Below, piece by piece: positions 11,007 to 12,412 of a DNA stretch of 12,659 nt (its first letter is position 1; the number at the start of each line of letters is the position of its first letter). The position numbers were made by a program, and so were the translations under genes. Under the pieces are notes generated by a model. That model saw only the letters and a list, made by a program, of their open reading frames with translations, ran no database searches and had not been told where the DNA came from. This DNA comes from Desulfurobacteriaceae bacterium (lineage in GTDB: Bacteria; Aquificota; Aquificia; Desulfurobacteriales; DQVG01): positions 1 through 12,659 of the forward strand of contig DQVG01000127.1 of NCBI GenBank assembly GCA_015661865.1, written 5' to 3'.

Positions 11007-12128
11007 ATGAAATACACATCTTTATATCAAAAGTATAGACCTCAAACTTTTGAAGATATAAAAGGTCAAGATCATATTGTAAAAACTTTACTCTCTGCTC
11101 TTAAACATAATAAAATAGCAAATGCCTATATATTTGCTGGACCAAGAGGTTTGGGTAAAACTTCCACAGCCCGAGTATTTGCAAAGGCTTTAAATTGTCT
11201 TAAATCAAATATAAATCCTTGTAATGAATGTGAAAATTGCAAAGAAATCACCCAAGGAATTTTTCCAGATGTAATAGAAATTGACGCGGCCTCAAATAGA
11301 GGAATTGATCAAATAAGAGAACTTAGAGAAAATGTTAAATATGCTCCTTTAAAAGGAAGAAAAAAAGTATATATAATCGATGAATTTCATATGCTTACAA
11401 AAGAAGCTTTTAATGCTCTTTTAAAAACTTTAGAAGAGCCCCCTTCCCATGTTGTTTTTATTTTAGCCACAACTGAGCTAGATAAAATTCCAGCAACTAT
11501 TTTATCTAGATGTCAAAAGTTTATCTTTAGAAAGCTTAGTATAGAAGAAATTCTTGAAATTCTTGAAGATATTTGTAAAAAAGAAAATGTTAAGTATGAA
11601 AAAGAAGCTTTAAAACTTATAGCAAAGCTAAGCGAGGGTTGCATAAGAGATGCAGAAAGTTTACTGGAGCAAGCTATACTTTTAACTGAAGGAAATTTAT
11701 CTGTAGATAAATTAAAAATTCATTTAAGTTTATTTACACACGAAGATATAGAAGAGCTTTTAAAATTATCTTTGTCTTCAGACTTAGAGTCCTTAAGAGA
11801 AAAATTAAATAAATATGAATCTTTGGGTTATAGCTCAGAAAATTTAATTAAAGCTATTTTAAATTATGTTTCAGAAAAATTTAAAAAGGAAAATTTTGAA
11901 AAATTTTCTCAAGATATCTTACTTATTATATTTGAAACCTTTTCAAAAGCTTATAAAGATTTAGCTTTTCATCCTTACCCTTATGATTTAATTTATTTTA
12001 CTTTTGTAAAAATTTCTTACTTTAATGATTTAATTTCGGTAAAGGAATTCTTATCAAATTTAAAATTGCCAGCAAATAACTTGGATGAAAATGTAAAAAA
12101 AAACTTGAAAAAATTGCTCCCCACATAG
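11007..12128 (+). CDS. dnaX: DNA polymerase III clamp-loader subunit DnaX, zero-frame (gamma-like) product
   Basis: DnaX is the motor ATPase of the clamp loader that opens the beta sliding clamp. The zero-frame product is 373 residues. Domains are an AAA+ module with Walker [10 protein letters not shown] (45-53), a zinc module with C64, C72, C75 and C78, Walker B IIDEFHM (123-129), sensor-1 ATTE (154-157) and the SRC motif with the arginine finger (167-169), then the lid (domain II) and the domain III collar helices to about 360. The start ATG has GGAG 5 nt upstream. The ORF ends ...[11 protein letters not shown], with its last 8 codons after a nine-A run, and so lacks the C-terminal tau region. 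The -1 frame continues for 102 codons, described separately. The tRNA-Ser/SRP RNA/dnaX order is also found in Bacillus subtilis. Confidence 0.95.
12095..12104 (+). promoter_or_regulatory. dnaX slippery site (A9 followed by C)
   Basis: Nine consecutive A's (12095-12103) followed by C are read in frame as GTA-AAA-AAA-AAC. They contain the -1 heptamer A-AAA-AAC (12098-12104). The zero frame stops at 12126-12128, the +1 frame stops at once (TGA at 12106), and only the -1 frame stays open. A9 is the same run length that causes transcriptional slippage in Thermus thermophilus dnaX. Possible helpers are weak: a 7-bp stem with one G-U (12129-12135 with 12147-12153) begins 25 nt after the site, and no strong upstream Shine-Dalgarno-like stimulator is seen. 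Transcriptional slippage is therefore somewhat more likely than ribosomal frameshifting. Confidence 0.75.
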
Positions 12129-12412
12129 TTTTCTCTAAACGGAAAGGAGAAGATATTTATATTAAGCCTTTAACTCAAGCCTCCTTATCTTTTTTAAAAG
12201 AACATATAGAGGATATAAAATTTCTTTATTCTTACTTTAAAGTTAAATACAAGAAAATATATTTCTTAAAACCTGAAAATAGCAAAGAAAATGCATCCGA
12301 AATTCCTAAAAAAGTGGAAGAAACTTATAAAAAATTACTTCAAATCTTTCAAGCTAGTCCTTCTTTAAAAATTCCTCCCATTCGGAAGGTAAAAAATCAG
12401 GAGAATATTTAG
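12104..12412 (+). CDS. dnaX: DnaX tau-type C-terminal extension in the -1 frame
   Basis: Reading on from the nine-A run in the -1 frame gives 102 further sense codons to a TAG at 12410-12412, for a full product of about 468 residues. The segment begins [15 protein letters not shown] and continues through [18 protein letters not shown], a helix, then KKIYFLKPE. This pattern of short helix, beta hairpin, long helix and basic beta strand resembles the C-terminal tau domain of DnaX, which contacts the polymerase alpha subunit. No start codon with a Shine-Dalgarno is present, so it is not a separate gene. Codon use matches the neighbours. The last 59 nt overlap the end of tgt on the other strand. 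The competing explanation is a homopolymer miscount (A9 for A10), which would make the long form the zero-frame product. Confidence 0.72.

Follow-up and report, generated by a model that had tools for sequence, protein, structure and literature searches.

Studies have shown that a single dnaX gene can give rise to two forms of the protein. In Thermus thermophilus, RNA polymerase slips on a run of nine A's (A9), and the gene also has a translational frameshift signature, according to the available parts of PMC1088944 (slippage) and PMC4320859 (both). When the Thermus run was studied in E. coli, both +1 and -1 shifts occurred and insertions predominated, as stated in the available part of PMC6260861. 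In E. coli dnaX itself, the frame change is made by the ribosome at the site A_AAA_AAG with the help of a Shine-Dalgarno (SD) sequence and a stem-loop. A reversed layout was described as a new type of dnaX in 17 genes from 12 genera by Antonov et al. 2013 (PMC3711429, available part); here the short form is read in the zero frame and the C-terminal part lies in the -1 frame. In the same part of that report, 12 of the 17 two-ORF genes have a poly-A run, which is A10 in nine, A9 in Chloroherpeton thalassium, and A8 and A7 in the others. In this study, we analysed a dnaX gene with an A9 run and compared it with the genes of its relatives.

Layout of the dnaX Gene

The window, that is, the whole stretch of 12,659 nucleotides that was analysed, is contig 93 of a draft genome (G000) of 870,810 bases. 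It ends with dnaX and the final part of tgt. In its zero frame, dnaX (11007..12128, + strand, TAG included) encodes a gamma-like short form of 373 aa with the clamp-loader part. This product is DnaX, as TIGR02397 scored 421.6 bits against a cut-off of 250, and the gamma and tau chains of E. coli matched its residues 1-285 with an E of about 1e-76. The A9 run (12095..12103, + strand) starts from codon 363 near the end of the clamp-loader part, as in the Thermus-type gene, and the zero-frame codons around it read GTA AAA AAA AAC TTG AAA AAA TTG CTC CCC ACA TAG, with the stop at 12126..12128 (+ strand). Past the run, the -1 frame has about 102 codons free of stops and closes at the TAG of 12410-12412. 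As judged by frame reading and homology, it encodes at 12101..12412 (+ strand, TAG included) a C-terminal domain of 103 residues, which would form residues 365-468 of a long, tau-like form.

The first-pass annotation had described this arrangement, with a nine-A run including A-AAA-AAC, a zero-frame stop soon after it and a -1 frame open for 102 codons, and all of it was found again. It had also held that the other shifted frame stops at once, and indeed a stop follows after 4 codons, counting from the first codon of the run, if the run has eight A's. Ten A's give one frame with a read-through product of 468 aa, and counted in the same way, the n+1 frame is open for 106 codons in the window and in the sister species described below. 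The reversed polarity that it proposed, in which the short form is the unshifted product and the long form the shifted one, can be read directly from these frames. The Thermus-type layout (zero-frame tau, with the two remaining frames soon closed by stops) was found neither in the window nor in the sister species, and the window has the reversed two-ORF layout of Antonov et al. 2013, including the poly-A join. The E. coli-type shift site A_AAA_AAG is absent, and the window has A AAA AAA and A AAA AAC in its place.

Some other features of the window were noted. Immediately before dnaX, at 10806-10987, are a tRNA-Ser (GGA) and the small SRP RNA, and the same pair precedes dnaX in the sister species, judged by eye. 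The gene at 9726-10538 (- strand) starts with TTG, and its product of 270 aa has an SRP54-type GTPase domain and is presumably FlhF- or FtsY-like. A 136-aa protein at 3941-4351 (- strand) matches Toprim weakly, scoring slightly below the cut-off of Pfam, and its flanking genes are presumably radA and surE.

Conservation of the Run and of the Frame Break

A sister species of the same genus (genome G001; locus L003, which is stretch L032 of JAMOTM010000029.1, an Aquificota MAG) has a DnaX that is 76% identical to that of the window. Its run is again A9 (L003:1337-1345), and not A10 or A7, the lengths at which the first-pass annotation expected tau to be the plain zero-frame product. Its zero frame again has 373 aa, and its -1 frame is open with nearly the same end. 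A third genotype, P0002 (10 members, 3 contigs), is 98% identical to the DnaX of the window and also has 373 aa; P0003 (76% identical) likewise has 373 aa. The alignment of the window with the sister species contains an identical block of 31 nt (12094..12124, + strand), which is read in two frames, as the zero-frame tail and as KKLEKIAPH in the -1 frame. This block is the third longest identical stretch in the aligned 1.4 kb. The zero-frame tail of 10 residues and its stop are identical in both species, and the TAG is kept although its surroundings differ (ACA TAG and ACG TAG). The frame transition is therefore conserved between G000 and G001, the two species compared.

The first-pass annotation had named a homopolymer miscount in assembly or sequencing as the main rival explanation, and the draft assembly is fragmented into 160 contigs, with a completeness of 64%. 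We rejected the miscount because the A9, the stop after 373 aa and the open -1 frame all recur in the sister species and because the third genotype ends at 373 aa; judged from these genotypes, the A9 run is genuine. The other A9 sites of the same genome agree with this. We examined 31 distinct A9 sites in G000 (dnaX and 30 other loci) out of 72 pattern matches. Under the thresholds used, only dnaX had a frame break at the run; none of the 30 other sites showed one, and 22 of them lie within unbroken frames of at least 150 codons (23 of 31 if the dnaX zero frame is counted). We therefore give a miscount a negligible probability.

These 31 sites were compared with 72 distinct sites of G001, a subset of the sites that account for its 121 matches, and the run of dnaX was the only one found at an equivalent position in the alignment. 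Because this comparison yields no match where regions have diverged, it could have missed conserved sites. In four other G000/G001 pairs that were matched, the run maps elsewhere in two and the alignment stops short of the run in two. As a separate observation in the sister genome, a distant AAA+ match (29% identity) at G001:C56:94926-95648 has one TAG and one TAA inside.

The run could also flip between A9 and A10 within the population, since a homopolymer may, as is generally known, mutate by strand slippage of the DNA. All three genotypes end at 373 aa, and no longer version was found among the 120 best matches above 60% identity, so we consider such phase variation extremely unlikely. A continuous-frame version of the window DnaX was not found in a database clustered at 90%, in which the 7,999 candidates sharing most words were scored. 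A second search of 707 candidates returned only the 373-aa P0002, and its silence is weak because even P0003 was missed.

Coding Signal and Homology of the -1 Frame

The peptides of the -1 frame in the window and in the sister species are identical at 56 of 103 positions. Over the first 86 codons of this frame, the differences at codon positions 1, 2 and 3 numbered 39, 16 and 41, respectively, and the binomial P for the low count at position 2 was 2e-4. When the 306 nt after the run were shuffled with dinucleotides kept, the frame stayed open in 3 of 20,000 shuffles for G000 and in 0 of 20,000 for G001. The last 59 nt of the frame (12354-12412) overlap the end of tgt on the opposite strand, and a stretch of 46 nt starting at 12350 is shared without change by the sister species. 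Conservation at 12354-12412 has a second cause because of this overlap, and nearly all of this part was left out of the codon-position test; it may code on both strands.

The first-pass annotation had made its case depend on a likeness of the extension to DnaX C-termini, and this likeness was found. The profile of the C-termini of relatives' DnaX scored 16.4 bits with the -1 peptide of the window and 27.9 bits with that of the sister species, and the best of 500 shuffles of the window peptide reached 9.6 bits on the same profile. Judged by this profile, the -1 peptide shares homology with the C-terminal end of single-frame DnaX in relatives. The window peptide had no family above the cut-off in Pfam or NCBIfam, and a PDB sequence search with the alignment of the relatives' C-termini (A1) gave nothing below E 0.075. 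When profiles were compared against the C-termini of 23 DnaX proteins, of which the majority carry a PF20964 annotation, the probability was 12-15% and the single-comparison E 0.002-0.003, which is not a decisive match. The predicted fold of the -1 domain weakly resembles the polymerase-binding domain of E. coli tau (domain V, DANL type); in a second look with VIA-align there was no tau chain among the 50 matches listed, and with a second structure model of the domain ZnT1 chains ranked above tau. It was also observed that DUF6363 matches 3 of the 9 members of A1, with a best E of 1.4e-4.

It might be supposed that the downstream part is decaying, so that the short form alone is used in the window's family and the -1 frame is a remnant. 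The extension does evolve faster (pN/pS of 0.51 in the first 86 codons of the -1 domain vs 0.26 in the N-part), and the profile score of 16.4 bits in G000 is weak. However, about 102 codons have stayed open in both species at a dS of about 1, the second codon position is conserved (P 2e-4), and the 31-nt block at the join is identical in both species. We regard decay as very unlikely.

An independent start of translation in the -1 frame was considered and is unlikely, as the frame has no ATG. Its only GTG, TTG or CTG codon is a GTG at index 71 in G000 and a TTG at index 31 in G001 (0-based, of 103), and these are not shared. After the SD-like AAGGAG at 12144-12149, some 55 codons of this frame pass without an ATG, GTG, TTG or CTG until index 71 is reached, and the sister species lacks the AAGGAG.

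The Run in the Sister Family and the Class

We surveyed dnaX in 24 genomes of the order and in 37 further genomes of its class. The window's family is sampled by two genomes, one of them 64% complete. The sister family (f2), taken as Desulfurobacteriaceae, has 22 genomes, in 20 of which the linker was sequenced; the contig ends earlier in G010 and G023, the gene of G020 is split over two contigs, and that of G019 contains a masked or gap stretch of 100 N. A run was found at the homologous place in all 20 covered genes, as A9 in 19 and as A8 in one (G016), and its distance to the stop is 91-109 codons. The zero frame encodes the long form in every one of these genes, which is the Thermus-type polarity. 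The frame closes within 4-9 codons with one more A and within 5-23 codons with one fewer. Translated at the run, the zero frame gives EKKT in 15 of 20 genes, and with an additional A the reading is EKKN-stop in 11 of 20. The codon phase of the run is the same as in the window (KKN) in genus g4 and differs in the other genera of the family.

A9 is rare in the sister family, whose genomes of 1.0-1.8 Mb each have 2-33 matches when both strands are counted. Within codons 340-385 of dnaX, A9 was observed in 18 of 19 genes of this family, against 3.98 expected under synonymous resampling and 2.31 under codon permutation; the 19 genes (G019 left out) come from seven genera of one family, and their kinship was ignored, so no probability is attached to the excess. 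A9 is common in the window's genus, with 72 matches in G000 and 121 in G001. This contrast perhaps reflects composition, or a different tolerance to slippage. Since the run occurs so often in G000 and G001, the polymerase of these species may slip on it only a little.

In the families f3 and f4, which make up the rest of the class, A9 within codons 340-400 was found in 3 of 37 dnaX genes, all from one genus, and the run is therefore not a trait of the whole class. A run of A8 or longer was present in 7 of the 37. In the three genes with A9 (G036, G042 and G047; loci L162, L168 and L173), the run is at codon 372, the other frames stop 4-11 codons on, and DnaX is short, at 419-428 aa. This genus is a possible second slippage lineage.

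How the Long Form May Be Made

In this study, we believe that the dnaX of the window is probably a two-product gene of reversed polarity, the long form of which would be made by transcriptional slippage on A9. Normal transcription and translation would give the 373-aa short form with the ATPase and clamp-loader part. If RNA polymerase slips on the run, some mRNAs would carry one extra A, or any number of A's that leaves one when divided by three, and their ordinary translation would pass into the -1 frame and give the 468-aa long form. mRNAs with 8 or 11 A's would also give a short form. The long form would carry the C-terminal domain that binds polymerase in tau, and it presumably binds polymerase here as well. 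The A9 run, its two frames and their presence in a second species, the homology of the -1 domain and the A9 of relatives are observed; we infer the occurrence of slippage, its transcriptional nature, its efficiency, the binding of polymerase by the domain and the direction in which the polarity changed.

Alternatively, the ribosome might produce the same long form by shifting into the -1 frame at the run, on A AAA AAA or A AAA AAC. The phase of the heptamer suits such a shift (GT[A AAA AAA]AAC), and the frame change of E. coli dnaX is ribosomal. For Chlorobium phaeobacteroides, whose dnaX is reversed, the available part of PMC5009743 mentions potential stimulators like those of E. coli. The comparison of sites in E. 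coli in the same part of that source, which involves A_AAA_AAC and A_AAA_AAA, speaks against the ribosome. So does the search for stimulators: no downstream RNA structure common to both species was found in folds of 47 and 80 nt (z-scores of the 80-nt folds, -1.36 and +0.72), and of the five SD-like motifs that were scanned near the run, none was present in the sister species and AAGGA was present in G000 at 12042 and 12144. The codon phase of the run also changes among the relatives. We consider ribosomal frameshifting rather unlikely. Transcriptional slippage is favoured because the run is nearly always exactly nine, because its codon phase varies among relatives, and because no downstream structure is shared by the two species; the A9 precedent of Thermus is also a transcriptional one.

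Regarding the history of the polarity, a tree of 57 DnaX N-parts placed the two reversed genes as the sister group of f2, with support of 100/100 for the reversed pair, 98/96 for f2 and 100/100 for both together (midpoint root, with a long-branch warning at the base). The simplest reading is that the reversal occurred in the window's family and that A9 was inherited from the ancestor of the order, because the zero frames of f3 and f4 span 413-509 codons (37 genes) and those of f2 encode the long form. This ancestor probably already used A9 as a slippage site, with a zero-frame long form as in f2; an indel near A9 that changed the frame in the window's family would then have swapped the unslipped form. 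The flanks of the run are too diverged to tell which indel switched the polarity.

We lean slightly to a wider view, that the A9 slippage site was kept throughout the order while the frame was inverted in one family, so that the slipped and unslipped forms would have exchanged roles between sister families. If slippage is about 50%, such an inversion would be nearly neutral, and this may be why the polarity varies among bacteria while the run does not. The order may thus serve as a natural experiment, with 20 genes in which the long form is unslipped and two in which it is slipped around the same run. The pair of polarities makes it possible to test whether slippage holds the gamma:tau ratio near 1:1 and whether polarity is selectively neutral. 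If our reading is true, the tau that couples the polymerases exists in the window bacterium only through slippage on a homopolymer. Protein predictions cut such a DnaX short; P0002 and P0003 both end at 373 aa without the C-terminal domain.

Comparison with Known Systems

The dnaX of E. coli resembles that of the window in having two products and a -1 frame change at an A-rich site. It differs in that the change is ribosomal with SD and stem-loop stimulators, in that tau is the unshifted product, and in that its site ends in AAG and not in the AAC or AAA of the window. The dnaX of Thermus has an A9 run and two forms of DnaX like the window, but its tau is unslipped and its gamma slipped, the reverse of what we propose for the window; the genes of the sister family share the polarity of Thermus. 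In Blochmannia vafer and B. floridanus (PMC3017870, available part), a poly-A frame break was also found in dnaX, and tau was proposed to arise by transcriptional slippage. In the same part of that source, however, the break falls downstream of the usual shift site, in the region that only tau has, and it is described among the frameshift errors of reduced genomes and not as a programmed site.

The closest likeness is to the two-ORF dnaX genes of Antonov et al. 2013, in which, as in the window, the zero frame gives the short form and a -1 shift at the poly-A run would be required for tau; transcriptional realignment was proposed for them in the available part of PMC3711429, and by the species named there they belong to another lineage. 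The reversed layout is therefore already known. In the literature, which was covered in part, we found no report of a pair of opposite polarities within one order. A further difference is that close relatives with the same A9 and the opposite polarity are available for the gene of the window. What this study adds is a further lineage with the reversed layout, together with a case, inside a single order, of both polarities sharing one conserved A9.
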